Assembly: GCA_947177405.1 (NCBI GenBank)
Contig: CAMWUJ010000005.1
Coordinates: 1 to 64,000, forward strand
Source of the DNA: an uncultured Porphyromonadaceae bacterium
Lineage (GTDB): Bacteria > Bacteroidota > Bacteroidia > Bacteroidales > Muribaculaceae
Direction: 5' to 3'
DNA length: 64,000 nt
This document shows positions 33,762 to 63,083 of this stretch, in pieces. The position numbers and the translations under genes were made by a program. Each line of letters starts with the position of its first letter. The stretch's first letter is position 1. The notes below the pieces were generated by a model. It worked only from the letters and a program-made list of their open reading frames with translations, was not told where the DNA came from and made no database searches.

Positions 33762-33775
33762 CCGGCAGTTAAAGA
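33750..33775. repeat. Attachment site attL at the mnmE 3' end
   Basis: The sequence atcggNaagtgaccggcagttaaaga covers the last three codons and stop of mnmE and recurs with one mismatch at 63058-63083. The repeat starts the element-borne DNA and precedes the tandem-HTH and integrase genes. Similarity to the right copy continues after a six-base indel (actata...agttg). Confidence 0.85.
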
Positions 33776-33830: not shown

Positions 33831-33956
33831 TTTGCCCGAAGATAGCCAAACTAATCGGTAGAACCCGTTTCTACCTATTTTTCACTCCATTTTTGAACCA
33901 CATTTGTTGCTCGTCTGCTACCCGAGTTAAGTTGCTCTGCTCGGTAGTGGATGATG

Positions 33957-34000
33957 TTCATACTCGTTCACGCTCATTCAGGCGTATTCATACGAGTTCA
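33957..34000 (+). promoter_or_regulatory. Five TTCA iterons with exact 10-bp period
   Basis: TTCA occurs at 33957, 33967, 33977, 33987 and 33997, with partly conserved flanks (ctcgTTCAcgctc-like). The array ends 41 bases before the tandem-HTH gene. The exact helical phasing suggests binding by the multi-HTH protein on one face of the DNA. Confidence 0.6.
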
Positions 34001-34041
34001 ACGAAATAGCTCAATGAGTGACACAATTTTAACTCACAGTT

Positions 34042-34806
34042 ATGGCAACTTCAAACATTAGAATCAAGAAGGTCTGTCAGTGGTGTGGAAATGAGTTTGA
34101 GGCTCAAAAGACCACAACCCAGTATTGTTGTAAGCGATGTGCCGAGCACGCTTACAAAGAGCGTAAAAGACAAGAGAAGAAGAAAATTACTGAAACTCTT
34201 GATTCGCTTACTGCTCGTGAAAATAAGATAAACCAACTCTCAGGCCGAGACTATCTATCGGTTGCTGAAGTGGCGCAAATCCTTAATGTTACGCCAAGGT
34301 CAGTATACAATCTCATTTACCGAGGTACCATCAAAGCCTATCGTCTCACCTCACAATGGGCAGTAATCAAAAGAGCGGATATTGACGCAATGATCGAGGC
34401 TCGTCCTTATGAACGTAAACCGAAAGCGACCGCACTTGCCAATGATGAGAACGGTGAGGCAATCTCAGAATTTTACACGACAAAGGAGATTATCGAGAAA
34501 TTTGGAGTGAGCAATTCATGGGTATTCGCTCAGGGGAAGGCTCACAATATCCCGAAGGTGTATCATCGAGGGAAGACACTCTGGAGCAAGACGCATTGTG
34601 ACCGGGTGTTTACGGCAAAGCCTGAAACTCCGAAAGAAAAAGATTGGATATCGTATTCCGATGTGCGCGCAGAATACAATCTGACGCATGACCAGCTTCA
34701 CAATTATGTGAAGTATCACGGACTGCGCCGTAAGAAAGTCGGAAAGTACTCTTATATCTTTAAGTCTGAAATCGATGCGATTCTCCGTCCTCCTACGTTG
34801 AAATAA
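34042..34806 (+). CDS. Zinc-finger plus tandem-HTH regulator (element A)
   Basis: 254 residues. An N-terminal treble-clef-like finger (CQWCGNEF ... YCCKRCAEHAYK) is followed by three MerR/excisionase-type HTH units at about 72-125 (LSVAEVAQILNVTPRSVYNLI), 146-195 (YTTKEIIEKFGVSNSWVFAQG) and 207-252 (ISYSDVRAEYNLTHDQLHNYV). It is homologous to the 300-residue protein at the start of element B. Position before the integrase suggests a directionality factor or autoregulator. The helically phased repeats upstream and the GGTTATC array downstream are its likely targets. Confidence 0.75.
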   Translation: MATSNIRIKKVCQWCGNEFEAQKTTTQYCCKRCAEHAYKERKRQEKKKITETLDSLTARENKINQLSGRDYLSVAEVAQILNVTPRSVYNLIYRGTIKAYRLTSQWAVIKRADIDAMIEARPYERKPKATALANDENGEAISEFYTTKEIIEKFGVSNSWVFAQGKAHNIPKVYHRGKTLWSKTHCDRVFTAKPETPKEKDWISYSDVRAEYNLTHDQLHNYVKYHGLRRKKVGKYSYIFKSEIDAILRPPTLK

Positions 34807-48300: not shown

Positions 48301-48748
48301 AGAAATCAGTCCTATCCTTATGGCCATCGAGTATGAGAAAAACGGAGCAATCTGCGTAGCTCATTGCTCCCAATGCATTGATAAATTTTTCTGTTGCATA
48401 TTCATCTTTCTCATATACCATCTTATTAACCTTAAACACGATAGTATTTCGACCAATTTCGTTTTTGTCAACGGGCACAATTTCCATATCTGATAGTCGC
48501 ATGACATAGTCTTTAGTAACTATATCATCAACCATTGATAATGCTTGCAAGGCTTGCGATGAATACGATTGCATCTCAAGCTGATTTTGCCTCATTAATG
48601 CAGCATGATCATCTTCCTTTACAACTTGGGCGATAGCTGTTGGATCATCGACCTTAGTAGGAGATGAAGTTTTATCAGCAATGGGAGTTCCATTAAGAAG
48701 TGCATCTAACTCACTGTTTCTTTTCTTTTTGTCGTGGATAGTCCCCAT
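45353..48748 (-). CDS. HerA/FtsK-like ATPase with glycine-rich membrane segment
   Basis: 1131 residues. The N-terminal 280 form an uncharacterised domain. A Ser/Thr-rich linker (SYSTTESLANAISRTHGTSN) leads to a Gly/Ala-rich hydrophobic stretch at about 335-385 (AGSIIGGALAAIGGVALMA). Another linker follows, and the C-terminal half is a HerA/DUF87-type ATPase with Walker A GSTGCGKSETVYRL (about 620) and Walker B ITVLEEAHNIL (about 846). HerA/FtsK ATPases pump DNA or protein as hexamers. The membrane segment hints at a pump or gate at the envelope. It is flanked by dynamin-like GTPases and toxin-type genes. Confidence 0.8.
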   Translation of the reverse strand: MGTIHDKKKRNSELDALLNGTPIADKTSSPTKVDDPTAIAQVVKEDDHAALMRQNQLEMQSYSSQALQALSMVDDIVTKDYVMRLSDMEIVPVDKNEIGRNTIVFKVNKMVYEKDEYATEKFINALGAMSYADCSVFLILDGHKDRTDFYIGIRNNDERRTDSSVAETFENSLKGQFPGIDLEQCSVPEHVGSLSSQQQLFERFNQASSVCSCSGIPSYKDEDGKYTNQTFIQGIEKLALAMQGKEYTAIILASNISGDNLAEVRHGYERLYTQMSAVATQQVAYSTTESLANAISRTHGTSNSKSHAVSEGTSDTTGTTITHTTNHSVSKKSGLAQAGSIIGGALAAIGGVALMATGIGAPAGLALVGGGAALAAAGANAPQKTSGTSEANAKQENHTENRNVTDSESTTEQFSETNGRTVSVGSSKNFTLTVHNKHVEEILKRIDNQLERLAIAEGTGVWASGSYFLSYENDRDTAETAAAIFRSIMQGEKSGIEASAVNRWLDTKTPEKIKLLTTSITSFVHPTFIFENTKIDQQIPVTASSLISTAELAMQMGLPRKSVPGFPVLEHISLGKEVVTQSGKEIERALQMGCIFDQGKIRENNLVNIEAKSLTQHVFVTGSTGCGKSETVYRLISQAKKKGAKFLIVEPAKGEYKNVFGDANVYGSNPEITQLLHINPFRFPQGIHVLEHIDRLTEIFNVCWPMYAAMPAVLKKAIIQSYEKAGWNLLNNRNKYDRFFPTFNDLLVELEEVIKDSAYSEEVKGNYIGSLVTRVESLTNGLNGAIFGGVEIPDETLFDTDTIVDLSRIGSQETKALIMGILVMRLNEYRMVNATEANVGLKHITVLEEAHNILKRTSTEQSQEGSNLAGKAVEMITNSIAEMRTYGEGFVIVDQSPTSVDPAAIKNTNTKFIMRLPDGDDRRIAGKSAGLNDSQLDEIAKLSTGVAVTYQNDWEEPVLCKISLRKEDPVKYSYTPQEIDESNPDNLAEVIKFLIDGRIPEKVDFDINVVNQAKFSSELTTAQKILLSNLIKEYGETDKLSLWDNDNFEDLAKLITDLLGVRSVVEKYAKGSKTFEELDSKLCNLVTEQIGQETENVNLIVRQSLMKDYSLGGDTRKDIYYAWYRNVKNRL

Positions 48749-48751
48749 GGA

Positions 48752-49282
48752 TTACTTTCTATTATCATTAATTATCAGAAGAACCCCTCCCACGAATATA
48801 GCGCCTCCAATTATTGAAAGCGCAGTCATTCCTGTACACATTCCAACAGTAGCAACAATAGCGCCACCAACTGCTACGCCACCCGATACCTTAGTAATCT
48901 TGATGGTGCGTGTAGGATGTTCTAGATGGGAATCTTTATCATCTACTACAGGCAATGCTTCTTCCTCTTCAACCTCAATTGCCTTATCTTTCCCTACAAA
49001 CTTCACAACAGCTTCATAAAAAGCCAATTTCTCTTTTGAGAAGTTTGCGTCCAGATCACTTTTGACTTCATACATGAAGTCTTCGTCCCATTGATCTTTA
49101 GGTGGAACTGCATAAGAGGCACCTTTGTTTCCCTCAAAAAGATTTGGAAGGTGCGCTACAGCATATTCGAGCATCTCGTTGAATGAAACGCCTCTAGGGT
49201 CAAACAGCAATTCGCTTGATAAAGCGATTCTCACCATTGCCACATTGCCGTTATCAACGGCTTCTTTATATTCGTTTTTCAT
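48752..49282 (-). CDS. Small protein with C-terminal membrane hairpin
   Basis: 176 residues. The first 125 are soluble, with an acidic linker (AIEVEEEEALPVVDDKD). The last 45 contain two closely spaced hydrophobic helices (VAVGGAIVATVGMCTGM, LSIIGGAIFVGGVLLII). It lies three bases before the HerA-like gene and nine after the large GTPase. It may tether the complex to the membrane. No family recognised. Confidence 0.65.
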   Translation of the reverse strand: MKNEYKEAVDNGNVAMVRIALSSELLFDPRGVSFNEMLEYAVAHLPNLFEGNKGASYAVPPKDQWDEDFMYEVKSDLDANFSKEKLAFYEAVVKFVGKDKAIEVEEEEALPVVDDKDSHLEHPTRTIKITKVSGGVAVGGAIVATVGMCTGMTALSIIGGAIFVGGVLLIINDNRK

Positions 49283-49291
49283 TATCCTATT

Positions 49292-51577
49292 TTAAAAGTT
49301 AATAAGTTTGTTAACTCTGGCAATAATGCCCTCCATCCATTTCAGTTCTTCGCGCTGCCGTTTAATTTCCTGTTCGGTTTGTTCGGCTGCATTTGTACTC
49401 CGCTGAAGTTCAGTCAATTTTGATTCAAGGATTCCATCAATCTGGCCAAGCACTTTCTTAAGAACGTTTTTAATACGTTGACCTTCTTTCTGAGTATGGT
49501 TTTCTGCCGCCTTCTTTGCTTCTACCAACTGAGCATGCATAGGAAAAAGGTACTGATATGCAACAGATGACATGTCAACATATTCAACGTTCTTTGCAAC
49601 CCATTCTTGATATTGACGGTCGTAATATTCCGTATCATATCTTTCAGAGCCCCAGTTCCATGGAGTCCAGAACCAGTTCGTTTTTTTGACTTTACGAGAC
49701 TCCCGCTTGGTTTTGGTCTCATAATGTCCTTCATCGATAGTCTGAGTGCTCTTTTTTATAAGAGAATCGATATTGGCAATATCTTCGGAGACAAAATCCA
49801 ACGGAGAGAGATTAAGGTCGACATCCTTTATGGCCAAACTAATTGTTTTGAGGTGTTCCTTATACATATCAAGAATGTCTGAATATAACGTCTCAAACGC
49901 CTTGGTAAGTACATCATCTATACGAGCATCTAGTTGAGTTAGAATAGTAGAAGATTCCTTCTGGATCTCTTTAACCTGACGTAGAGCATCAGATTTTGGA
50001 ACTTTTGAGGACTTTTTGTGTGTGAATATTATCTTGTCAATTCTTTTACCAAGTTCATTAATGAAAGGATTGATTTCACCTGATACGTTTTTGGTAAAAT
50101 CTTTCTTGTCAATAAGTGCTGACAGAACCTTGGCAGCATCTCCAGAACTAATGATCTTTCTAATTCGCTCGATGTCCTGATTGAGTTTTACCTTGCGCTC
50201 TTCACTACAACGAATCTCTTCTTTTAGTGACTCTATTGCAGCCAGTTCCTTTAATCGATTATTAAAAGACTCTACAAGGTCTTTTACCTTTAGTGCTCGA
50301 GCATATTTGTTTACGTACAAGGCCACGGCCTCTTCAACTGACACAATCCCGCTATGAATCTCGACTTTCTCTTCTTCTGTGGCCTCTTTTAGCAGACGCT
50401 CGATTTCCTTTTTAGACGAATGAGGAAGATTATTAAACTCATAATAGGAGTCGAACTTCATCTCTTCAAAATACTTCAAGGCATCTTGAAAAGAATCGAG
50501 TGTACTATGTCTAACAGGATTTGTTCGACATTCGAGCGCAACCTGAGCCGAAATTGGGTATATGTTGGGGAACATGATACCACGTTCTTCAAGAACTTCT
50601 TTTGCCTGACGCAATGCACCTGGGATATCATCATCCTCCGGGTTAAAAGCATCCATTTTGTTGATGGCGAAGATATAACGTTCTCGTGATTGTTTACCTC
50701 CTTCTTTCATACAATTGCATACATAGTCCATGAAAGCGGCTTCATCGTTAACACTTAAATTAGTACCATTCATTACAAACAATACGAGAGATTTATCAGA
50801 ATCATTAAGCATCTGATATGTCATCCTCTCATGGTCCTTATCGCGCGAGTTATTTGGTCCTGGAGTGTCAACCAATATTAATTTCATTCCAACCGAATCA
50901 ACGCATGGAATGCGTCCATAAATATCAATTGCCGAAATCGCTTTATCAGCATTCCACGCTTTCATTTGAGAATATTCGATATTATTCTCCTTGTAGAGCA
51001 CGCCTCCATTGGAATCGTATGCTATCGCGCTGAAATTATCCTGATTAGTATCAATGATTCGTACAATAGTAGCTGTTGTAGCAGTATTTGCGACAGGCAT
51101 GAGTTTCTTACCCAGTAGTGCATTAATTAATGTGGATTTACCCGAACTCATTGTCGCAACGACATTGATTTCAAACTCTTGATTCTTAGCCTTCTTAAAA
51201 GCCTCAACAATATCGGCATCCTTGAGACTTTTGACCGGACCCTTCTGGATTTCCACAAATATATTATCTACCTCGCCTTCTACCGATGACACATCAGGGA
51301 TATTCTCTTCGCGGCTCCATTTTGAAACAGATACGATGTCAGATTTGCTATTAAAACCGTCCTTTAAGTCGTTATAATCAGTAGGAGTACCAATAAAGTG
51401 GATATTGAACTCGCGGTCACTGCTTTCCTTGACAAGAATTTCAGGAAGTTCTTCCGCCCACTCCTGTATGCGCAATTTTCCGAAGTGCAACTTACTGTTG
51501 TCCTTCGGTTCCTTCCCGTCAATCAGAATCTCAGTCTGAATGTGATATGGGTTGTATTTGATCGTTATTTTTTTCAT
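49292..51577 (-). CDS. Dynamin-like GTPase, large
   Basis: 761 residues. An N-terminal beta-rich domain (about 1-110) precedes a dynamin-type G domain with G1 ATMSSGKSTLINALLG (about 141-156), a switch-I region TATTATIVRI, G3 LVDTPGPNNSRD, and G4 INKMDAF. The C-terminal 350 residues are long helices with a basic and aromatic tip (KKTNWFWTPWNWG) that could insert into membranes, then a coiled coil. Bacterial dynamin-like proteins often occur in tandem pairs, as here, and fuse or seal membranes. Its start overlaps the second GTPase gene by four bases. Confidence 0.88.
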   Translation of the reverse strand: MKKITIKYNPYHIQTEILIDGKEPKDNSKLHFGKLRIQEWAEELPEILVKESSDREFNIHFIGTPTDYNDLKDGFNSKSDIVSVSKWSREENIPDVSSVEGEVDNIFVEIQKGPVKSLKDADIVEAFKKAKNQEFEINVVATMSSGKSTLINALLGKKLMPVANTATTATIVRIIDTNQDNFSAIAYDSNGGVLYKENNIEYSQMKAWNADKAISAIDIYGRIPCVDSVGMKLILVDTPGPNNSRDKDHERMTYQMLNDSDKSLVLFVMNGTNLSVNDEAAFMDYVCNCMKEGGKQSRERYIFAINKMDAFNPEDDDIPGALRQAKEVLEERGIMFPNIYPISAQVALECRTNPVRHSTLDSFQDALKYFEEMKFDSYYEFNNLPHSSKKEIERLLKEATEEEKVEIHSGIVSVEEAVALYVNKYARALKVKDLVESFNNRLKELAAIESLKEEIRCSEERKVKLNQDIERIRKIISSGDAAKVLSALIDKKDFTKNVSGEINPFINELGKRIDKIIFTHKKSSKVPKSDALRQVKEIQKESSTILTQLDARIDDVLTKAFETLYSDILDMYKEHLKTISLAIKDVDLNLSPLDFVSEDIANIDSLIKKSTQTIDEGHYETKTKRESRKVKKTNWFWTPWNWGSERYDTEYYDRQYQEWVAKNVEYVDMSSVAYQYLFPMHAQLVEAKKAAENHTQKEGQRIKNVLKKVLGQIDGILESKLTELQRSTNAAEQTEQEIKRQREELKWMEGIIARVNKLINF

Positions 51578-52656
51578 TGGTTTAGAATTGTCGTTTCTAA
51601 ATTGGTTAATCCGCTTCTTGCAAAATAGTCATCTTCTGATGAGCAAATGCCGGTACCATACATACCAAAGTCATAGAAGAGCGAAGACATTTTTTCTTTC
51701 AAAGATTTGAGTTCACTCTCCTCAAACTGAGAGAGGGTGTGATCCAACTCTTTTTTTAACAAAAAGGCTGCCTTTGCTGAGAATGGTATGATTTGAGCAT
51801 TCGACTTCTTACTCTTAAGAAGTTGCCTAAATTGCTTTAGGCTCTCTTCTATAGAGTCATCGGCAGGGTCAAATCTATCAAGCTGATTAAATATAAACAA
51901 GATATTTTTTTTATTTTGCTTTAAGATGTGTCTTATAAGTTCATCCTCACCGTTTCTCTCTATATATGGGCCATTATTAACGCAGATTAGTAAATCGTAA
52001 TCACCTCGATTGATTGCATCATAAGTTACTTTCTTATGTGATGTATCATAAGCATAGTCAACCCCCGGAGTATCGGTAATGATAAGAGGTTGGCTTTCCA
52101 AACTTCCATGAAATCTCAGCGCCTTATTGGGAATATCTTCAATCGCAATTTCCCTATCATTACTATTGATATAACTTGACCCGTCAGAATATAGCAATGT
52201 ATCTCTGAACGGATTGTTATAGAGATACGAAATAGAGGTAGTGCATACTGTAGTTTTCACCTTTGCCACCTTCCGCCCAACAAGAGCATTAACCAATGTA
52301 GATTTACCTGCACTCATTGTAAGCACGATTAGTAGACGCTTTGTCGGTTTCTGTCGGAATGAAATCTCGGCAACGGACTGCTCGACCAAGTTAGAGGGTA
52401 AACCGTTCCCATTTCCACCGTTAAGAAAAAGTTCTTTTACATACTTTCTGTACTTCTTTGAAAAGAATCCGGTTGCTCCTTTTAGTCGCTTGTCATAAAT
52501 GTCATACGAGATTGGAAGGCCTGCTTGGAATGCGATTCTGTATACATCCCACCAGAAACAGTCAGACATTCTAAAGAATCTTAAGCCATTTCTAATCAGA
52601 GATTGCGCAGCTTTGATATTCTTGTTGTCTTTCGATTGCTTCCATCCGTCTGTCAA
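51574..52656 (-). CDS. Dynamin-like GTPase, small
   Basis: 360 residues. G1 TMSAGKSTLVNALVG (about 113-127), TTVCTTSISYL as switch I, G3 ITDTPGVDYAYD, and G4 FNQLDRFD are all present. It lacks the long C-terminal helical stalk of the larger partner, so it may be a regulatory or hetero-oligomeric subunit. The first 100 residues are helical and aromatic (MSDCFWWDVYRIAFQAGL). It precedes and overlaps the large GTPase gene. Confidence 0.85.
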   Translation of the reverse strand: MTDGWKQSKDNKNIKAAQSLIRNGLRFFRMSDCFWWDVYRIAFQAGLPISYDIYDKRLKGATGFFSKKYRKYVKELFLNGGNGNGLPSNLVEQSVAEISFRQKPTKRLLIVLTMSAGKSTLVNALVGRKVAKVKTTVCTTSISYLYNNPFRDTLLYSDGSSYINSNDREIAIEDIPNKALRFHGSLESQPLIITDTPGVDYAYDTSHKKVTYDAINRGDYDLLICVNNGPYIERNGEDELIRHILKQNKKNILFIFNQLDRFDPADDSIEESLKQFRQLLKSKKSNAQIIPFSAKAAFLLKKELDHTLSQFEESELKSLKEKMSSLFYDFGMYGTGICSSEDDYFARSGLTNLETTILNQ

Positions 52657-52844
52657 AACTTCCCTAGAAGTGTCTCACATAATACATCATAACAGAACTT
52701 AGCCTTATAACTCATTTGGCTATTAGGCTCAATCGCACAAAGAGTCTCCCCAAGTCCACGAAGATACTTAATCTTCAGTCTCTTTGGAAGACCATTGATT
52801 GGATGATTTGCGGGTATTATGTTTGAAGTTATAAGCCTCTGCAT
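52653..52844 (-). CDS. Small hypothetical protein
   Basis: 63 residues, basic (LPKRLKIKYLRGLGETL), soluble, with no recognised family. It overlaps the start of the small GTPase gene by four bases and follows the candidate anti-sigma gene directly. Tight packing argues for a real gene. Confidence 0.5.
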   Translation of the reverse strand: MQRLITSNIIPANHPINGLPKRLKIKYLRGLGETLCAIEPNSQMSYKAKFCYDVLCETLLGKF

Positions 52845-53111
52845 TTAAAATAGTATGTTTTTAGGTTTATTATCAATATTTGAAGGAATTTCTTGATTAT
52901 AAATTTTTTCTAAATAACGTTCACATTCAGGTATTCGTATTGGCTCCAAATCACTGAGTATACTCTCCAATGATTTTGCGTCTTTGGTCACCTCTATTAT
53001 CTCTTCAATCATTGAATCTTTCATTGAATCGGAGTACACTAATCGCTCCAAAGGGGTTAGCTTATCATCAATAAAAGATGCTATCAAATTGTCGTCAATT
53101 TTTTGCTCCAT
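52845..53111 (-). CDS. Candidate cytoplasmic anti-sigma or regulatory protein
   Basis: Start at MEQKIDDNLIASFIDDKLTP (53111), two bases after the sigma gene. 88 residues, very acidic, helical N-terminus (IASFIDDKLTPLERLVY), reminiscent of the zinc-less anti-sigma domain of Bacteroidetes ECF partners. There is no membrane helix. Location immediately after a sigma factor gene is the main support. Confidence 0.5.
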   Translation of the reverse strand: MEQKIDDNLIASFIDDKLTPLERLVYSDSMKDSMIEEIIEVTKDAKSLESILSDLEPIRIPECERYLEKIYNQEIPSNIDNKPKNILF

Positions 53112-53113
53112 CT

Positions 53114-53662
53114 CTATACTAATAATATACAACGTAATTGTGCAATCGCCCTCCTATGAATATTGTATAAGTTTGCAACTGTGACGCTAAGTTCAGCAGC
53201 GGCATCTTCATAGGAGACCTCTTGCAAGTCCAGCAACTGAATAGTCCGTTTATATCTCTCATTTGGCATCGCATCAATGGCCATCGGTAGATTAACGGAG
53301 TCCTCCGAGATATTGGTGAAAATATTTTTATCATTCTCTATTATTAGAGCCTCCGAAGATTCGTTTTCTATCAGCTTATCTCGCTTTCGAATGAAAAATC
53401 TGGTTGCTACTACCGTTATCCAAGTCATCAAAGAACTATTGTAGTTGAAATCTTTAAGCTTTCTCCAATTATCGTAAGCAAGGAACAGAAATAATTCATT
53501 CACAAGTTCGGTTTTGTCAATGCGTCCGGAGAAAACTGAGTTCAGTATATACACAAACATATTAGAACACTTCTCGATAAAGAAGTATTCAATAATAATA
53601 GGATCGTTGTTAAGAATTCCTCTAACAACTTCTTCATCCGTAAATTCGACAGTCCTTTTCAC
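53114..53662 (-). CDS. ECF-type sigma factor of the cargo operon
   Basis: The track begins at a TTG; the better start is GTG 53662 (MKRTVEFTDEEVVRGIL), giving 182 residues. Region 2-like helices (IEYFFIEKCSNMFVYILN, WRKLKDFNYNSSLMTWITVVATRFFIRKR) and a region 4 HTH (VSYEDAAAELSVTVANLYNIHRRAIAQLR) are visible. It is the first gene of the series running down to 43055, so it may drive its own operon. No consensus TAnnTTTG box is seen just upstream, consistent with an alternative promoter. Confidence 0.8.
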   Translation of the reverse strand: MKRTVEFTDEEVVRGILNNDPIIIEYFFIEKCSNMFVYILNSVFSGRIDKTELVNELFLFLAYDNWRKLKDFNYNSSLMTWITVVATRFFIRKRDKLIENESSEALIIENDKNIFTNISEDSVNLPMAIDAMPNERYKRTIQLLDLQEVSYEDAAAELSVTVANLYNIHRRAIAQLRCILLV

Positions 53663-53721
53663 AACTAATATTTTAACAATAGTATTAAAAACAATAATTA
53701 CCAATTATTAAATATCAAGTT

Positions 53722-55113
53722 TTAAATCAAAAGCAAACTGAAATCAACATCTGGGATGATTGATTTTTGAAGTTTATCCTTGATAAGGAAACCCATGTAT
53801 AATGGGATTGTTAATACCTCCCCCTGTCGTCCTACATTATATTGACCTAACTTAATCGCATTGTTGACATGATATACGTCTTTGTTCTTAAGCACGGTAG
53901 TCATACTCTTTGCCTTACCAGTCTTGGATTTTACCTCAATAAGCATACACTCGCCATTAAACCGTACTAAAAAATCTATTTCAAGGCCGCTATCCTTATG
54001 AAAGTAATATAGTTTCTGACCCGATTTACATAGAAAATCTGCCATTAGATTCTCAAAGATCGCGCCCTTGTATCCAAGCAGATTTCCTTTCAGAATGTCT
54101 GCTTGAGTGCCATAATCAAGCATTCCCATTAGAATGCCTATATCTGTCGTATACACCTTAAAGCAATCTTCAATGGCGTTACCACTCAGCGGAAGTTCAG
54201 TGGTGGTTGTATTATAACATCTTTCTACAACTCCGGCATCCTCAAGCCATTGAAGACTTCCCTTAAATTGGGAGGCTCTACCACCCTTTCTAACCACAGA
54301 GTATTGGAATTTCTTATTTTCCTTCGCCAATTGTTTTGGTATGGACTCAAAGCACTCCCGAATATGAGGTTTATCTGTATCATCTGCATATTTAACCATA
54401 TCCTCTTCATATTCGGCTAAAAGAGTTCGTTGTGTCTGGTAAATCAAATCAATATTTTTCGTTTCAATAAAACAGTTCACAACTTCCGGCAACCCTCCGA
54501 CTATGACATATCTATACAATAACTCCATCATTGCTTTATGAATACCATCAGGAACCGCGCTTTCGTTCTCAAAACACAACCTAACAGTGTCTATGACCTT
54601 AGTGGCAACCCCGTTCGCCCATAAGAATTCCTCAAAGTCCAATGGATACATATCAACTATAGTCTCATATCCTACCGGAATTGAATCTACACCCTCATCT
54701 TCCTTTTTCCCCTTTTTATGTTTGCCGTACCCCTTTACTCCTAAAAGAGAGCCGGTAGCAATAACATCGAAGCGTTTATCCAACTTAAATGATTTAAGGG
54801 CTGTTCTGGCCTCCTTACACTCTTGAATCTCATCAAGGATTATACAGGTTTTACCGTTAATGAATCTGGCTCCCGGAATAAGGGCCGAGAGGTTGAGGAT
54901 TATAGTATCAACATCAAGGTTGCCCGTAAAAGCCGATTTCTTATCGGGTTCAAGTAGAAAGTTCATGTATACCACATTTTGGTAATTCTCCTTTGCAAAT
55001 TTTTTTACAATAAAAGTCTTACCGCATTGGCGAACACCTTTTATCACCAATGGTTTCCTATCTTCAGCCTGTTTCCACTCTGATAAATATGTCTCGATTT
55101 TTCTTCTAAGCAT
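53722..55113 (-). CDS. ATPase of the AAA_14/DUF4143 family (element A)
   Basis: 463 residues from MLRRKIETYLSEWKQ (55113). Walker A GVRQCGKTFIVK, Walker B ILDEIQEC, sensor VIATGSLLG, and the C-terminal DUF4143 PD-(D/E)XK-like segment (SGLEIDFLVRFNGECMLIEVKSK). The start is fixed by a TAAATTTG box at 55133-55140 (minus strand), which lies inside the longer ORF. It ends 59 bases before the sigma gene and could be co-transcribed with it, though it is a common stand-alone gene. Confidence 0.86.
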   Translation of the reverse strand: MLRRKIETYLSEWKQAEDRKPLVIKGVRQCGKTFIVKKFAKENYQNVVYMNFLLEPDKKSAFTGNLDVDTIILNLSALIPGARFINGKTCIILDEIQECKEARTALKSFKLDKRFDVIATGSLLGVKGYGKHKKGKKEDEGVDSIPVGYETIVDMYPLDFEEFLWANGVATKVIDTVRLCFENESAVPDGIHKAMMELLYRYVIVGGLPEVVNCFIETKNIDLIYQTQRTLLAEYEEDMVKYADDTDKPHIRECFESIPKQLAKENKKFQYSVVRKGGRASQFKGSLQWLEDAGVVERCYNTTTTELPLSGNAIEDCFKVYTTDIGILMGMLDYGTQADILKGNLLGYKGAIFENLMADFLCKSGQKLYYFHKDSGLEIDFLVRFNGECMLIEVKSKTGKAKSMTTVLKNKDVYHVNNAIKLGQYNVGRQGEVLTIPLYMGFLIKDKLQKSIIPDVDFSLLLI

Positions 55114-55132
55114 ACTTCTCTTGATTTCATTC

Positions 55133-55140
55133 TGCAAATT
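55133..55140 (-). promoter_or_regulatory. -7 box of the DUF4143 gene
   Basis: TAAATTTG on the minus strand, about 20 bases before the start at 55113. Confidence 0.65.
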
Positions 55141-55269
55141 TACACTTTTTAGAGCGTAAATGCAAGGACTTTCCACATTTTTTCAAGGGAATATGCAAAG
55201 ACCCATCACACTTTTTCAAACGAATAAAATAAGAATGCTACATTTTTTGTAACGAATGAGGAGTCGAAT

Positions 55270-55465
55270 GTTGCGTATGTCGCCGATTTTTGCTAATTTT
55301 GTAATCGAAAGCAGCAAGCTATGAGTGGCTTGAAGATGGAGGCTTAGATAGTCTTCGGAAAAATGAAAGGACAATGGTTTTACTTTCAATTACTTACAGA
55401 AATTGAGGTTGAACCTTTTAAACTGTAATTCCTTGATTCAACGATAGTTTACCACACTGTATCGG
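55270..55465. repeat. Terminal approximately 195-bp repeat, copy in element A
   Basis: Nearly the same sequence occurs at 62866-63063, roughly 88% identical by eye, with both copies ending in an mnmE-like TGTATCGG. It includes a promoter-like TTG-N20-TAATTTTG, a small hairpin (AAGCTA tgag TGGCTT) and the inverted pair TTACAG/CTGTAA. It marks the right end of element A and probably holds integrase-binding sites and/or a small RNA gene. Confidence 0.85.
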
Positions 55466-55469
55466 CAAA
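55458..55469. repeat. Internal attachment site attM between elements A and B
   Basis: tgtatcggcaaa matches the mnmE end codons (Cys-Ile-Gly-Lys) and the right att core. It directly follows the terminal repeat of element A and precedes the left end of element B, whose sequence (ttggtaaatacc) differs from that of element A. Confidence 0.75.
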
Positions 55470-55514
55470 TTGGTAAATACCTATAAATCTCATAATTAAC
55501 TAATAAATAACACG

Positions 55515-55541
55515 AAACGCCTCTATTCAGGGGCGTTTTTT
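55515..55541 (+). terminator. Terminator at the left end of element B
   Basis: AAACGCC / GGCGTTT stem (with a C-G extension) followed by TTTTTT. It occupies the same position as the terminator at 33805 in element A. Confidence 0.85.
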
Positions 55542-55654
55542 ATTGGTCAAAATGTCCGATTTTTGCGCATTTTGTTCGATTTTAACGCTTTCTTGTATCG
55601 CGATTGTACCGTATTCGTGGTTTCCAGTCTCTGCCTTTCGAGGTCGTGGAGTGT

Positions 55655-55690
55655 TGGGACACTCTGAGACACATTGGGACGCGCTGGGAC
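55655..55690 (+). promoter_or_regulatory. Four TGGGACAC iterons with exact 10-bp period
   Basis: TGGGAC, TGAGAC, TGGGAC and TGGGAC occur at 55655, 55665, 55675 and 55685, mostly followed by AC. The array ends 31 bases before the tandem-HTH gene of element B. It mirrors the TTCA iterons of element A in spacing but not in sequence. Confidence 0.65.
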
Positions 55691-55721
55691 ACTTTTGTGT
55701 AACTTTTAACAGAAATAACCG

Positions 55722-56624
55722 ATGAGCAGTACAATTGACATCAACAAGATTTGCGAGTGGTGTGGCAAAGAGTTTATAGCCCACAAATGCACTACTCGCT
55801 ATTGTTCCAAGCGATGTAGTGAACACGCTTATAAGACATTAAGGCGAGAAGCACATGTAAAGAAAGAGAATCTGATAACACAAGAGAAGAAAGAAGATAA
55901 AAAGAAACCTCTCGGAAATTACTTTACCCCTCGGCAATGTGCCGTCTTACTTGGTATTGGAAAGTCTTCTGTCTATCGTTGTCTTGCAGAAGGACTAATT
56001 CCTTGCATACGTTTGAAGGGAAAGACCCATATCAGCCGGGCAAGCATTGATAAGATGTTTGAGAACCCTCCTGAATATATCAAGAGGGAGAGGAAGGAGG
56101 CCGAACCCATTGAAGAGTTCTACACTACGAAAGAGATTCTTGAGAAATTCGGTATCAGTAATTCGTGGCTATTCAAGATGGCTAAGGAACGGAACATTCC
56201 GAAAACCGTAGTCAGAGGAAAAACGCTCTGGAGTCGAAAGCATTATGATAAAGCTCCTGCAGATAAACAACCCACGGAAGTTGCCGAGGAAGAATGGTAT
56301 TCGGTTGAGGAAGTTTGCGCCAAGTTCAACATGTCTAAGGAGGCTGTCTATCGGTTCGTGTCTGAACGGAAGATTTGGAAGCGAAAGGATAAGTTCAAAG
56401 TATTCTATTCGCGCCGCCAGTTCGACAAGGCAATGGGTGTGGAGACTGAACTTGAGTCCGAATATTATACTATGCCTGAAGTAATGGCTAAGTATAATAT
56501 GACTCGCGATCAGATTTCGCATTACATCCGTGCTCATAATATTCCGCGTACATACGAAGGAAGATATGTGAAAATAGACCGAAAGGCTCTCGATGCCTTA
56601 TTCGCGCCTCCGAAGTTAGGTTAA
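55722..56624 (+). CDS. Zinc-finger plus tandem-HTH regulator (element B)
   Basis: 300 residues, homologous to the 254-residue protein of element A but with one more HTH unit. The N-terminal finger is CEWCGKEFIAHKCTTRYCSKRCSEHAYK. HTH units lie at about 67-115 (FTPRQCAVLLGIGKSSVYRCL), 131-180 (YTTKEILEKFGISNSWLFKM), 190-240 (YSVEEVCAKFNMSKEAVYRFV) and 247-297 (YTMPEVMAKYNMTRDQISHYI). It probably controls integration and binds the phased repeats upstream. Confidence 0.78.
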   Translation: MSSTIDINKICEWCGKEFIAHKCTTRYCSKRCSEHAYKTLRREAHVKKENLITQEKKEDKKKPLGNYFTPRQCAVLLGIGKSSVYRCLAEGLIPCIRLKGKTHISRASIDKMFENPPEYIKRERKEAEPIEEFYTTKEILEKFGISNSWLFKMAKERNIPKTVVRGKTLWSRKHYDKAPADKQPTEVAEEEWYSVEEVCAKFNMSKEAVYRFVSERKIWKRKDKFKVFYSRRQFDKAMGVETELESEYYTMPEVMAKYNMTRDQISHYIRAHNIPRTYEGRYVKIDRKALDALFAPPKLG

Positions 56625-56717: not shown

Positions 56718-57827
56718 ATGCTACCCTCAACTTGTTCTAAAGTAACGCTCCGTATGCGTCCGATCAAAAACGACAGACTCTCCCTCTATCTTGACTATTA
56801 TCCCCCTATCCGTCATCCAAAGACGATGAAGATGACGCGAAGGGAGGGACTGGGTTTCTATATATTTGCAAATCCGAAGGGGAAATACCAGAAGGAGTAT
56901 AATGATGCGATAATGATGCGTGCGGAAGTGATCCGCTGCCGTCGCCAGGAGGCGGTGATAAATGAAGAATTCGATTTTATTGACCGCGAGCAGCCCAAGG
57001 CTGATTTCCTTGAATATTTCCGCAAGAAAGCAAAGAAGCAATACGAAAAGTGGACCGTCACATATCGGCACTTTGAGAAGTTTGTAAAAGGTAAATGTAC
57101 TTTCGGGGAGGTGACAGTGGAACTTTGCAATAAGTTCCGTGACTATCTGCTGACAGCAAAGCAACTGCGATATCCCAAATTGAATATCTCACAAAATTCA
57201 GCTGCCGGCTATTTCTCCACTTTTCGTGCATTGCTGAAAGCAGCTTATAAGGAAAGACTCTTTAAGGAAAATCTGAATGACTTTATTGAGGAGATTGAAT
57301 ATGAGGAAGTGAAGAAAAACTTCCTTACTGCCGAAGAGGTAAAGCGACTGGCGGCAACTCCATGCGAAAAACCGGTATTGAAGGCTGCTTCCCTTTTCTC
57401 CATCCTTACGGGATTGCGGATAAGTGATATTCTCAACCTATGTTGGGAGGATATTCGTCCGGATGCCGATGGTAAATTAGCTGCATTCATACGTATTCAA
57501 AAGACACAGAAGGAGTCGGTGCATCCCCTGAGTGATGAGATGCTGGCTCTATGTGGCGAAAGAAAGACGGGAATTGTTTTCAAAGGTTTCAATCGCTCTA
57601 TGACGCAGGCTCCTCTTAAGAAATGGCTGAAAGCTGCCGGTATCACCAAGCGTATCACCTTTCACCGCTTCCGGGATACTTTCGCTACTCTCCAACTCGC
57701 TGCGGGCACAGACATTTATACAGTCAGCAAGATGCTTGACCATGCCAACGCAACTACCACCAAGATCTACGCGAAACTGGTGGATTCCACAAAACGAGAG
57801 ACTGTTGATAGAATCAAGCTTAAATAA
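56718..57827 (+). CDS. Tyrosine recombinase (integrase) of element B
   Basis: 369 residues, aligned end to end with the integrase of element A (SKVTLRMRPIKNDRLSLYLDYYPPIRHPKT). Catalytic residues: Arg in SILTGLRISDILNL, Lys region RIQKTQKESV, HxxR in FHRFRDTFATL (Asp replaces the His after Arg), and Tyr in TTKIYAKL. The TAGTTTTG box at about 56680 is a plausible promoter. It should act on the mnmE-tail att core shared with element A. Confidence 0.93.
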   Translation: MLPSTCSKVTLRMRPIKNDRLSLYLDYYPPIRHPKTMKMTRREGLGFYIFANPKGKYQKEYNDAIMMRAEVIRCRRQEAVINEEFDFIDREQPKADFLEYFRKKAKKQYEKWTVTYRHFEKFVKGKCTFGEVTVELCNKFRDYLLTAKQLRYPKLNISQNSAAGYFSTFRALLKAAYKERLFKENLNDFIEEIEYEEVKKNFLTAEEVKRLAATPCEKPVLKAASLFSILTGLRISDILNLCWEDIRPDADGKLAAFIRIQKTQKESVHPLSDEMLALCGERKTGIVFKGFNRSMTQAPLKKWLKAAGITKRITFHRFRDTFATLQLAAGTDIYTVSKMLDHANATTTKIYAKLVDSTKRETVDRIKLK

Positions 57828-57863: not shown

Positions 57864-57871
57864 TTAACTTT
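57864..57871 (+). promoter_or_regulatory. -7 box of the RelE/HigB-HigA pair
   Basis: TAACTTTG fits TAnnTTTG and overlaps the TTG taken as start in the ORF track, so that start is rejected. Confidence 0.65.
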
Positions 57872-57881
57872 GCATATAAAT

Positions 57882-58235
57882 TTGAGTTTATGGCAAATAG
57901 AACCATACGATTATTATAAGGAGTACTTTAAAGAATTCTACTTGTCTCAGACTGATGCTGTAAGAAATAAAATTAACTACTGCATCAATATGGTAAAGAC
58001 TCTTGACCGAGTTCCTTCAAGAATTTTGAAATTCATTGAAGGAACGGATGGTCTTTATGAAATTAGAATTGAGGTGGGTAGCAATATCTTCCGCGTGTTC
58101 TGTTGTTTTGATGAGGGTGCTATAGTAATCTTATTCAATGGCTTTCAGAAGAAAACCCAGAAAACACCAACTAAAGAGAAAGATAAGGCACTCCGTTTAA
58201 TGAAAGAATATTTTAAAGAAAAGAATCATGGATAA
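57882..58235 (+). CDS. RelE/HigB-like toxin
   Basis: About 117 residues if TTG 57882 is used; there is no ATG in frame. The body (EPYDYYKEYFKEFYLSQTDAVRNKINYCINMVKTLDRVPSRILKFIEGTDGLYEIRIEVGSNIFRVFCCFDEGAIVILFNGFQKKTQKTPTKEKDKA, abbreviated here to its recognisable motifs FIEGTDGLYEIR and LFNGFQKKTQKTP) is a typical RelE/ParE mRNA interferase of the Gp49 type. It overlaps its antitoxin gene by eight bases. Start codon is uncertain; a lost ATG cannot be excluded. Confidence 0.82.
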   Translation: MSLWQIEPYDYYKEYFKEFYLSQTDAVRNKINYCINMVKTLDRVPSRILKFIEGTDGLYEIRIEVGSNIFRVFCCFDEGAIVILFNGFQKKTQKTPTKEKDKALRLMKEYFKEKNHG

Positions 58236-58539
58236 GGCTAAAATAGAAGCAATCAAGAAAGCCTCAACATTTGATGAACTTCTTGATGCGGAATACGGGA
58301 TGGTAGGAACACCTGCCAGAGATCAATTCGAAAAGGACGCTGCAGCCTTCTGTCTTGCGGAAACTTTAAAGGAAGAGAGAGTACGAGCCGGCTTAACTCA
58401 GGAGCAACTGGCAGAGCGCATTGGCACGAAGAAAACCTATATCTCCCGTTTGGAGAATGGAAAAGCTGATGTCCAACTCGGCACATTGTTCAGAATCTTT
58501 GAGGGTCTTGGCAGAAGAGTGTCTATTACAATTCTTTAA
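58228..58539 (+). CDS. XRE-type antitoxin of the RelE/HigB-like pair
   Basis: 103 residues. The first 55 bind the toxin, and an HTH follows (LTQEQLAERIGTKKTYISRLENGKADVQLGTLFRIFEGLG). It overlaps the toxin gene, the usual toxin-first order of this family, and should repress the shared promoter. Confidence 0.9.
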   Translation: MDKAKIEAIKKASTFDELLDAEYGMVGTPARDQFEKDAAAFCLAETLKEERVRAGLTQEQLAERIGTKKTYISRLENGKADVQLGTLFRIFEGLGRRVSITIL

Positions 58540-59251: not shown

Positions 59252-60583
59252 TTACATATCATCTAATGTGAAGAGCTTAGTTTCGATCTTATACTTTGAT
59301 AAGATGCTTGTTTTGAGGCAGTTTACTTTCTCCATAAAAGCTTTATGGTCGTAGTTACGTTGCTGACGCTTTACTTCGGCTACAAGGGCTGATTTTCCAT
59401 CTATTGAGAGTGCCACGATGTCAATCTCATTGGCTTCTTTTCCCTTCTTGCGTTCCCACCATGAGCCGATATCCGAATACTTGTGACTTTCCATCATTTT
59501 CAGGCGAAACCATTTTTCAAGCGCAAGTCCGGAAAAGGTCGGATAATCTGAGAGGACGATCTGACGTAGGTACTCAAAATTGTTGAGCTCTACCAAGGTC
59601 TGGTTTCGGTCAAAATAGTTAAACCAGAAACGTAGGAAATTGTCATTAATCTCATACTGCACATTTTGAGATCGTGGCTTTGATAAAATCGGACGTACTC
59701 GCTTGATAAGCGAATAATCCTCGATCAGACGTTTCAAATGACCGGCTACCGTCACTCCACCTAATGCGCTTTCAATCGCACCTTGAGTGTTGATACCGGA
59801 TGCAATGCAGCTCAATACAGAGAAATATAGTCCGTAATCTTTTCCAAATTCCTCAATCAACAGGTTACGACCTTCATTTACGAATAGAGAATTTTCCCGG
59901 ACTACATAATCAAACATTCCTTCAATTGACAGATCCGTGTCGTCACATAGTAACTCAATATATTTCGGCACTCCTCCGGTGATGGTATATAATGCAAGCA
60001 ATTCATCGTTGGTATAGTCCGGGCGGAAATCCCGCATAATCTCTTTCATTGTATCGGTGCCGAATCCTGAGAGACGTATCATGGCATCAGATCTGCCAAA
60101 GAGCGGTTCGTGGTAATTTTCAAAGATCTTATGCATCATCGAATACGCTGATCCCATGAGAAGCAAATTGACATGAGTATCGTTTCGGTAAGAATCCCAG
60201 ATATTCTGCATGTCACTGTAAACCGATGGATTGATATTGAAAAATTCTTGAAATTCATCAATAATCAGATTGAACTTGCGAGTCTTCGCAAGCTCCATCA
60301 GCATTTTGAATAATGATTTGAAAGACTTTATCTCCGACGGCACATAACAATCAAGAGCCGAGGAAATCAGTCCGGCAAACTCTGCGCATAAAGCAGCCTC
60401 GTTTTTTCTGCTTACGAATAGATATACAGTAGGGTATTCGCCCTGCGTTGCACGCAGAGCAAGCGAAGTTTTGCCAATGCGACGTCGACCTGTTATAACA
60501 GTCATTCTTGAACGGGAGTCAAAGGCTCGTCCTTGGATTCTTCTTAGTTCCTCTATTTCCTTTGTCCGATTATAGAATTTCAT
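59252..60583 (-). CDS. AAA ATPase of the archaeal-ATPase/DUF234 family
   Basis: 443 residues. Walker A GRRRIGKTSLALRA (about 31-44), Walker B NLIIDEFQEFF, sensor LLMGSAYSMM, winged-helix region (TQGAIESALGGVTVAGHLKRLIEDYSLIKR) and a C-terminal DUF234/PD-(D/E)XK-like segment (EIDIVALSIDGKSALVAEVKRQ). Such ATPases are common on mobile DNA and of unknown role. The gene is bracketed by two similar promoter/operator sequences, unusual for a single gene. Confidence 0.87.
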   Translation of the reverse strand: MKFYNRTKEIEELRRIQGRAFDSRSRMTVITGRRRIGKTSLALRATQGEYPTVYLFVSRKNEAALCAEFAGLISSALDCYVPSEIKSFKSLFKMLMELAKTRKFNLIIDEFQEFFNINPSVYSDMQNIWDSYRNDTHVNLLLMGSAYSMMHKIFENYHEPLFGRSDAMIRLSGFGTDTMKEIMRDFRPDYTNDELLALYTITGGVPKYIELLCDDTDLSIEGMFDYVVRENSLFVNEGRNLLIEEFGKDYGLYFSVLSCIASGINTQGAIESALGGVTVAGHLKRLIEDYSLIKRVRPILSKPRSQNVQYEINDNFLRFWFNYFDRNQTLVELNNFEYLRQIVLSDYPTFSGLALEKWFRLKMMESHKYSDIGSWWERKKGKEANEIDIVALSIDGKSALVAEVKRQQRNYDHKAFMEKVNCLKTSILSKYKIETKLFTLDDM

Positions 60584-61578: not shown

Positions 61579-61821
61579 TTATTCGCTCAATCCCCTTAGG
61601 GTTCCTCGGCGTAGTTCCTCAGTTAACAATTCATATATGTATGCCGGGCTCTCTATATAGAGGTCGGTGCGCTTCTCGCATAGTTTGTCGAACGTCTCAG
61701 AATTATGAAACAGAAGCAACGCTTCCTCAAGACCAAGAGCTTGGTCACGCATAATCCACTCCACCACCCGAGTGGTTATATATTCCACAAGGAAATCAAA
61801 ATTATTGTTTGGCTGTTTCAT
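61579..61821 (-). CDS. DUF3990-associated small protein
   Basis: 80 residues (FDFLVEYITTRVVEWIMRDQALGLEEALLLFHNSETFDKL, shown here only by its core EALLLFHNSETFDKL and SPAYIYELLTEEL). This type of protein regularly accompanies DUF3990 genes. Its start overlaps the DUF3990 stop by four bases, so it is a third component of the module, perhaps an accessory antidote. Confidence 0.7.
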   Translation of the reverse strand: MKQPNNNFDFLVEYITTRVVEWIMRDQALGLEEALLLFHNSETFDKLCEKRTDLYIESPAYIYELLTEELRRGTLRGLSE

Positions 61822-62291
61822 ATCCGTCTTATATATTTAAGCGATTCTTCTGTAGCAAAGAAATACTGAGAATTGAGGTCTTTGTAAATCAGACCGGTCA
61901 CAACAGCATCAAGGTCGATGATTTCCATATCATAAAGTCCGAAGAGACGAGCCATGTTGTCATTGGCCACCGGACCGATGACAATGTCGTAGTCATGATG
62001 AAATTCTTCTCCATCCTGCCTACGGTTTGCCATCACAAACAATGCCCACTCCTTATCTGGTTTATCGAATACCTTCACATTCAATCCCGCTGCAGTGGCA
62101 GCATCGAGATCAAACTCAAATTCTGTAACCGTAGGAACTCCATCGAAGCGATCTGCTATTCTCCTTGACCAATAAAAGGCCTGATTTTTTATATGGGTAG
62201 TATAAAAACCCTGACCGAAGTCCTTAAATTTCTTGCCATGCGACAAATCTATGTTGTTTATAGTCTGATTTGAACCGTGATATAGAATCAT
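61818..62291 (-). CDS. DUF3990 protein, ADP-ribosyltransferase-like fold
   Basis: 157 residues from MILYHGSNQTINNIDLSHG (62291), which overlaps the HTH gene stop by four bases. The opening YHGS and the GQGFYTT segment correspond to the H and Y/F positions of ADP-ribosyltransferase-like enzymes. A later NDNMARLFGLY is family-typical. DUF3990 proteins are found with HTH or DUF3791 partners and are suspected toxins. Target unknown. Confidence 0.82.
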   Translation of the reverse strand: MILYHGSNQTINNIDLSHGKKFKDFGQGFYTTHIKNQAFYWSRRIADRFDGVPTVTEFEFDLDAATAAGLNVKVFDKPDKEWALFVMANRRQDGEEFHHDYDIVIGPVANDNMARLFGLYDMEIIDLDAVVTGLIYKDLNSQYFFATEESLKYIRRI

Positions 62292-62716
62292 GACACCGCA
62301 CCTCCATTTCTTTGACATATTGCAGCCATATCCTCCACACACTCTTGAAGTGAGAGCTGATGCTCTGCTTCATAATTACGGATTGAAAACTCAAGACCCT
62401 TGAACCGCGACAGATAATTACAAGCCTCCTTTTTTGTCAATTTGTATTTACGAGCAAATAAACCAAGACTCATCACTATATAATGAATTACATCTGACGA
62501 AACTGATTCAGTTGGTTTTAATTCTACACGTGCCGATACTCCTAAAGCTTCTGACAACTTATTGATTGTGGAGAAAGTGATACCTCTACCGTTCTCAATC
62601 TTCGAAATCTCAGATTTAGTCACACCGACTTTCTCACCCAATTGTCCTTGAGTAAGTCCAAGTTCCTTTCTTCGTTGGAGAAAAAGATTTCCTATTTCAT
62701 CAAATCTATCTGCCAT
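62288..62716 (-). CDS. XRE-HTH fused to DUF3791, partner of DUF3990
   Basis: 142 residues from MADRFDEIGNLFLQRRKELG (62716); the longer ORF overlaps the promoter. Residues about 12-65 are an XRE HTH (LTQGQLGEKVGVTKSEISKIENGRGITFSTINKLSEALG). Residues about 80-138 match DUF3791 (LFARKYKLTKKEACNYLSRF ... YEAEHQLSLQECVEDM). As first gene of the trio it most likely neutralises the DUF3990 enzyme and represses the operon. Confidence 0.82.
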   Translation of the reverse strand: MADRFDEIGNLFLQRRKELGLTQGQLGEKVGVTKSEISKIENGRGITFSTINKLSEALGVSARVELKPTESVSSDVIHYIVMSLGLFARKYKLTKKEACNYLSRFKGLEFSIRNYEAEHQLSLQECVEDMAAICQRNGGAVS

Positions 62717-62737
62717 AATTATTCTTATTAGCAAAAG

Positions 62738-62745
62738 CAAAATTA
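62738..62745 (-). promoter_or_regulatory. -7 box of the DUF3990 module
   Basis: Minus-strand TAATTTTG, 21 bases before ATG 62716. It excludes the upstream Met of the track ORF as start. Confidence 0.65.
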
Positions 62746-62865: not shown

Positions 62866-63063
62866 GTTGTGTATGTCGCCGATTTTCACTAATTTTGTAA
62901 TCGAAAGCAGCAAGCCATGAGTGGCTTGGAGATGGAGGCTGAGATAGTCTTTGAGAAATAAGATAAAGTAAGGTTTTTCAATTCAATTACTTACAGAAAT
63001 TGAGGTTGAACCTTTTAAACTGTAATTCCTTGATTCAACAATAGTTTGCCACGCTGTATCGGA
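62866..63063. repeat. Terminal approximately 195-bp repeat, copy in element B
   Basis: Second copy of the sequence at 55270-55465. The hairpin is AAGCCA tgag TGGCTT here and AAGCTA tgag TGGCTT there, a C-G to U-G change that keeps pairing. A perfect 16-bp palindrome GAAGGATTAATCCTTC lies just before it at 62843-62858, only in this copy. Confidence 0.85.
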
Positions 63064-63083
63064 AAGTGACCGGCAGTTAAAGA
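63058..63083. repeat. Attachment site attR
   Basis: Matches 33750-33775 with one mismatch in 26 bases. Preceded by TGT, it reads Cys-Ile-Gly-Lys-stop, the exact C-terminus of MnmE, although no mnmE body precedes it. It closes the tandem elements and may also be the left end of a further element. Confidence 0.85.

Follow-up and report, generated by a model that had tools for sequence, protein, structure and literature searches.

What does a four-fold direct repeat with an exact 10 bp period do in front of a gene coding for a protein with four HTH units, and which part of that protein, if any, reads it? This question is raised by element B, one of two related elements in the window (the whole stretch of 64,000 nucleotides that was analysed). 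A first-pass annotation had regarded the element B protein and its homologue in element A as regulators, each with its own repeats, and had proposed that the array of HTH units co-evolves with its operator.

The repeat array and the protein of element B

The features considered here, with their positions in the window and their strand, are the following:

33955..34004, +, array of element A, RTTCA units, period of 10 bp
34042..34806, +, homologous protein of element A, 254 aa, three HTHs
55461..55468, +, left attachment core of element B, ATCGGCAA, 193 bp before the array
55556..55574, +, constant arm motif CCGATTTTTGCNNATTTTG, left arm of B, probable integrase arm-type site
55655..55694, +, variable array of element B, four TGRGACRC direct repeats, period of 10 bp, predicted HTH1 binding sites
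55722..56624, +, excisionase-type protein of element B, 300 aa, four-cysteine motif and four winged-HTH (HTH_17) modules, from profiles and structure model
55752..55817, +, four-cysteine motif (C11, C14, C28, C32), invariant columns in the alignment, putative zinc finger
55920..56060, +, HTH1 (aa 67–113), putative reading module, recognition helix aa 81–89 with S82 (s3) and R86 (s7)
56115..56252, +, HTH2 (aa 132–177), conserved, no covariation with the array
56292..56435, +, HTH3 (aa 191–238), conserved, no covariation with the array
56460..56603, +, HTH4 (aa 247–294), conserved, no covariation with the array
56718..57827, +, tyrosine integrase of element B
62879..62897, +, copy of the constant arm motif with 2 mismatches, right arm of B
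63058..63065, +, right attachment core of element B, ATCGGAAA

The units of the element B array start at 55655, 55665, 55675 and 55685, a spacing of exactly 10 bp, and read, in order, TGGGACACTC, TGAGACACAT, TGGGACGCGC and TGGGACACTT; they can be split into TGGGACAC-TC, TGAGACAC-AT, TGGGACGC-GC and TGGGACAC-TT, unit two having TGAGAC. When the window is scored for four 10-bp units, this array comes out on top (0.75). None of 200 dinucleotide-shuffled versions of the complete window matches this value (maxima with a mean of 0.55, the highest being 0.67), and none of 5000 shuffles of the 200 bp preceding the gene reaches it. The runner-up is the element A array at 33955 (0.65; 0/5000 local shuffles), and TGGGACRC has no further occurrence in the 64 kb window outside the element B array. 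The four-fold repeat initially annotated is thus real, and so is the homologous four-HTH protein that follows it: the protein contains four HTH_17 stretches (Pfam, 3.9e-25) with regular domain spacing, and shares 42% identity with the element A protein (E 1.9e-44). It is also matched by the excisionase profiles TIGR01764 (2e-15, above cutoff) and phrog_66 (3.2e-23). In addition, aa 246–293, corresponding to HTH4, match the model of the MADS defence protein mad1 (PADLOC, 2.4e-19; NCBIfam MADS1, below cutoff), which suggests that MADS HTH proteins and these excisionases share ancestry.

The structure model, obtained from a two-sequence alignment, is of modest quality (mean pLDDT of 66, pTM of 0.25), the winged-HTH modules being clear and residues 82 and 86 falling within helix 81–89. 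A PDB sequence search with the single protein returned no match; profile and fold searches did, the latter relating the modules to DNA-bound BldC (TM to target of 0.75–0.82) and to Pukovnik Xis. In the profile alignment, s3 corresponds to Lys26 and s7 to Arg30 of BldC, residues that make major-groove base contacts, Arg30 reading the guanine of a 5'-TpG step (PMC5859096).

Tandem elements, attachment sites and cargo

The attachment core ATCGGCAA is also present at the mnmE 3' end (33750), and another copy of the constant arm motif, at 55283–55301, constitutes part of the right arm of A. From the core repeats and from the relatives we infer two elements in tandem, A at ~33.75–55.46 kb and B at ~55.46–63.07 kb (~7.6 kb). 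Their right arms (200 bp) are 88% identical, and close relatives have a left arm of B type that comes straight after an mnmE end. A constant motif shared by the two arms and a variable array on one of them are arranged as one would expect of integrase arm sites and of excisionase sites. The right core runs on as AAGTGACCGGCAGTTAAAGA (63058–63083), the sequence found right of the mnmE core at 33756–33775 and carried by A-type elements, and the DNA right of 63083 may include the remnant of a third element of this type.

The cargo of element B includes candidates for toxin-antitoxin or defence functions (57870–58539, 59252–60583 and 61818–62740), namely a RelE/HigB-like toxin (Gp49) with an HTH antitoxin, an ATPase of the PADLOC candidate PDC-S27, and a DUF3990 protein with an HTH/DUF3791 partner (PDC-M13-like); no relaxase was seen in this cargo. 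In element A, the minus strand of 45353–55176 codes for possible defence proteins: a HerA-like ATPase with a mad8-like match, two dynamin-like GTPases, one of them with LeoBC/LeoA matches, and a PDC-S01 ATPase.

Period, unit number and location among relatives

Searches of the order and family to which this DNA belongs yielded 144 distinct homologs, each containing between 1 and 8 HTHs, and 142 of them had enough upstream DNA for period analysis. A tandem period of 10 scores best in 128 of these 142, and p<0.01 against dinucleotide shuffles was likewise obtained in 128/142, approximately 10% of the relatives having no clear period-10 array. The units share a frame of free bases, variable letters, AC (A 0.95, C 0.89) and then mostly a purine. 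The period is therefore conserved while the letters vary, as had been proposed from elements A and B.

The number of units is 4, sometimes 5, at every HTH number (1, 2, 3, 4, 7 and 8), where detection required four units, such that three-unit arrays would score as four, and some counts of 1–2 HTHs come from proteins truncated at a contig end; this requirement leaves untouched that arrays do not lengthen at 7–8 HTHs and are full at one HTH. The number of HTHs hence does not track the number of repeats, and a one-to-one correspondence was discarded. The proteins with 7–8 HTHs (L110–L115, 515–548 aa) have four-unit arrays, and their HTH5–8 resemble a second copy of the multi-HTH block.

An integrase gene is located downstream, on the same strand, in 117 of 122 loci, and the attachment core is the mnmE 3' end in most relatives. 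Among the 80 elements with an mnmE-type end, the array lies 191–195 bp from the attachment core in 48 and 201–206 bp in 17, and its distance to the start codon spans 40–97 bp across all groups; since the elements are related, fixed distances are partly inherited, and the informative part is the contrast between the two. The arm between core and array (55461–55655 in B) contains further 10-bp-periodic stretches, the best period being 10 in 67/80 elements: some lie ~15–55 bp from the core (for example the CATCACAAAC repeats in L053) and others, of CGATTTT type as in B, at ~90–135 bp. As read from their sequences, small mobile islands in gut Bacteroidales carry a multi-HTH excisionase-like protein beside a four-fold 10-bp repeat. 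We found no earlier description of a multi-HTH excisionase family in the open-access literature, and one may exist elsewhere.

Covariation of the array with the first HTH

Co-evolution was assessed by Mantel tests, column-wise mutual information, near-identical mosaics and held-out prediction. Across a non-redundant set of 45 four-HTH proteins, the array core is correlated with HTH1 (r 0.46) and, when HTH1 is kept constant, is uncorrelated with HTH2, HTH3, HTH4 and the zinc-finger region. In 30 elements whose mnmE end is recognisable, the correlation with HTH1 is retained when the integrase and the arm segment are kept constant (r 0.44). We also considered whether HTH2–4 might recognise the constant arm arrays: the arm segment tracks the integrase (r 0.89, and 0.71 as a partial correlation controlling for HTH2–4), and its additional link to HTH4 is weak (partial 0.22).

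Among 57 non-redundant HTH1 sequences, the top column pair is s3 with base 4, the base before AC (z 11.4), followed by s7 with base 2, two positions upstream of base 4 (z 9.9). An arginine or lysine at s3 goes with C, a glutamine or alanine with G, and a proline mostly with T; an arginine at s7 goes mostly with G, and nearly every other residue with T. The same two columns are prominent in HTH1 pairs less than 45% identical, the s3 base being shared in 78% vs 27% and the s7 base in 68% vs 35%, which makes shared descent an unlikely reason for the signal. One relative is discordant (L114, with proline at s3 and G), and in another, at a contig end (L133), a TGATAC-type array precedes a GTTGAC-type HTH1, which may be either a real recombinant or an assembly join.

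The array letters thus covary with HTH1 only, via two recognition-helix residues four positions apart (S82 and R86 in element B), as if these residues were reading the repeat. The covariation of recognition helices and repeat sequences anticipated in the first-pass annotation is therefore found, and is confined to the first HTH. Protein and repeat sequence do co-evolve, but the HTH array is not matched to the repeat array: what relates to the protein is the sequence of the repeats and not their number.

Mosaics and held-out relatives

Four relatives are near-identical mosaics, in which HTH2–3 are 99–100% identical and the HTH1s and arrays differ:

L038, array core TGGGAC, HTH1 helix GKSSVYR
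L039, array core TGAGAC, HTH1 helix SRATLYR
L040, array core TTGCAC, HTH1 helix CVRTIYY
L041, array core TGACAC, HTH1 helix SRRTLYR

In mosaics of this type, the DNA from attachment core to array is largely conserved and, inside the array, it is mainly the core letters that differ.

For a first held-out set, taken from a wider class-level search and with the rule fixed beforehand, base 2 was predicted in 13/17 cases and base 4 in 3/7. Inspection revealed misplaced frames and poly-T stretches, with TTGCACTTAA-type arrays put in the wrong frame; rescoring, after the fact, with a frame rule based on AC only gave 10/10 and 7/7. With this frame rule and the filters fixed in advance, a second held-out set gave 5/5 for base 4 and 8/12 for base 2. 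The held-out relatives thus largely obey the two-residue rule. In three of the four misses of the second set (L249, L250 and L252), glutamine replaces a conserved tyrosine of the helix and the arrays are TGCACC; shifted by one base, this reads TGCA-CC, with the G kept and AC changed to CC. This post hoc idea, based on three cases, would imply that the helix tyrosine may govern the otherwise invariant AC. Several proteins of the second set have one HTH, yet a four- or five-unit array, and separate protomers must therefore occupy the units, if all are bound.

A further proposal, that co-resident elements avoid sharing an array type as if each had a private address, was rejected, since no avoidance was observed: the last three core letters are shared in 7/34 same-genome pairs and in 9.7% of between-genome pairs.

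Proposed function and alternative readings

With a probability of roughly three in four, we regard the protein as a multi-module recombination directionality factor (RDF) of excisionase type that serves an integrative island, with probable autoregulation. The array-to-core distance, tighter than that to the start codon, and the presence of the constant motif on both arms and of the array on one support this assignment, and autoregulation is suggested by the position of the array in the promoter region of the protein's own gene. We infer binding, filament formation and excision function as follows. Several protomers would line up head-to-tail along the four 10-bp repeats, each repeat spanning one helical turn and accommodating one HTH1. 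The HTH1 recognition helix would read the variable letters in every unit: residue 82 (s3) would determine the base that precedes the near-invariant AC, and residue 86 (s7) the base two positions upstream of that one. The resulting filament, ~190 bp inside the attachment core, with the constant sites (probably integrase arm sites) on one side and the xis gene on the other, would steer the integrase toward excision, and the protein would probably also control its own operon. HTH2–4, conserved with the integrase/arm lineage, may have another role, in binding constant arm sites, in integrase contact or in oligomerisation. The fixed attachment-core distance, the integrase neighbour and the excisionase profiles make excisionase-type protein a better designation than regulator, the term used at first.

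The main rival, unlikely in our view, takes the array as an operator only, through which the protein would autoregulate a xis-int operon with no direct role in recombination. Its location before the start codon, in a promoter region in all groups, fits this reading, as does the fact that HTH_17/MerR-like proteins such as BldC are regulators binding direct repeats; nevertheless, an operator alone would explain neither why the distance to the attachment core is far tighter than that to the gene, nor why the array occupies one attachment arm, next to constant sites present on both. The excisionase profiles and the integrase neighbour also argue against it, and Apl exemplifies that recombination and regulation can coexist. 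The picture first proposed, in which each HTH of one molecule reads one repeat, was drawn from the four regularly spaced HTHs and four repeats of element B; the similar unit number across the family, the likeness of units within an array whose HTHs differ, and HTH2–4 that do not covary with the units render it very improbable.

Array and HTH1 codons are ~230 bp apart and the mosaic breakpoints fall after HTH1, hence the two could be co-inherited as DNA neighbours, with no contact between protein and repeat. We judge this slightly less probable still, because the intervening zinc-finger region is uncorrelated with the array once HTH1 is held, the signal is focused on two helix positions, distant pairs included, whose equivalents contact bases in BldC, and unrelated HTH1s with the same residue have the same base. 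Least probable, to the point of being almost negligible, is that the repeats serve as replication iterons recognised by an initiator of the Rep kind. A mobile element on which short direct repeats precede the gene for a DNA-binding protein does recall such a system, but the profiles are those of excisionases and HTH_17 and not of replication initiators, an integrase follows, the array keeps a fixed distance from the attachment core and spacing by one turn is the RDF pattern.

Extending the excisionase-type RDF reading to the family, we lean slightly towards a widespread group of excisionases that holds the intasome geometry fixed while HTH1 diversifies rapidly together with its four sites, the later HTHs remaining constant and evolving with the integrase. 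Such a family would provide a readable two-residue HTH_17/Xis code and natural orthogonal RDF-site pairs. The rule would allow excisionase sites on Bacteroidota islands to be predicted, the array being readable beside each gene, and the specificity of RDFs, its determinants and the reasons for its diversification would become directly testable.

Comparison with known systems

Known RDFs are mostly small, single-domain proteins. The winged-HTH excisionases/RDFs (lambda Xis, phage 186 Apl, Pukovnik Xis and RdfS of ICEMlSym) share with the present family the HTH_17/excisionase fold, the integrase neighbour and direct repeats that are spaced by one helical turn and lie close to the attachment site. 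RDFs bind such repeats cooperatively and bend the DNA, and some of them act on promoters as well (PMC7498355, PMC11963761). The attributes of an RDF found here are an excisionase-family sequence, a tyrosine integrase neighbour in 117/122 loci and 10-bp repeats ~193 bp from the core, to which the protein is predicted to bind. What the present family adds is a zinc-finger-like motif and 1–8 tandem HTHs per chain.

BldC, a MerR-like protein from Streptomyces, has a fold resembling that of the present modules and binds direct repeats head-to-tail, and the association of its arginine with TpG is paralleled by that of an arginine at s7 with T-G. It differs in being a single-module, 68-residue developmental regulator that recognizes 9-bp repeats and is not located on an integrative element. 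A TALE-like correspondence of one module per repeat is not observed, with about four units at 1–8 HTHs. Salmonella genomic island 1 (SGI1) and its relatives at trmE/thdF integrate at the same gene end (mnmE = trmE = thdF; PMC8409611, PMC2297512), and SGI1 has been reported to integrate in tandem (PMC2297512); SGI1 belongs to another phylum and carries other cargo, the likeness being that of integration at the mnmE/trmE 3' end.

DNA recognition by winged-HTH excisionases has so far been portrayed as having little sequence specificity: RdfS yielded no consensus motif (PMC11963761), and Apl, which operates in both recombination and regulation, has a small specificity over non-specific DNA (PMC7498355). 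In contrast to RdfS and Apl, the present family appears to have a sharp, readable site code in HTH1, and its natural variation gives a testable rule of two residues and two bases.
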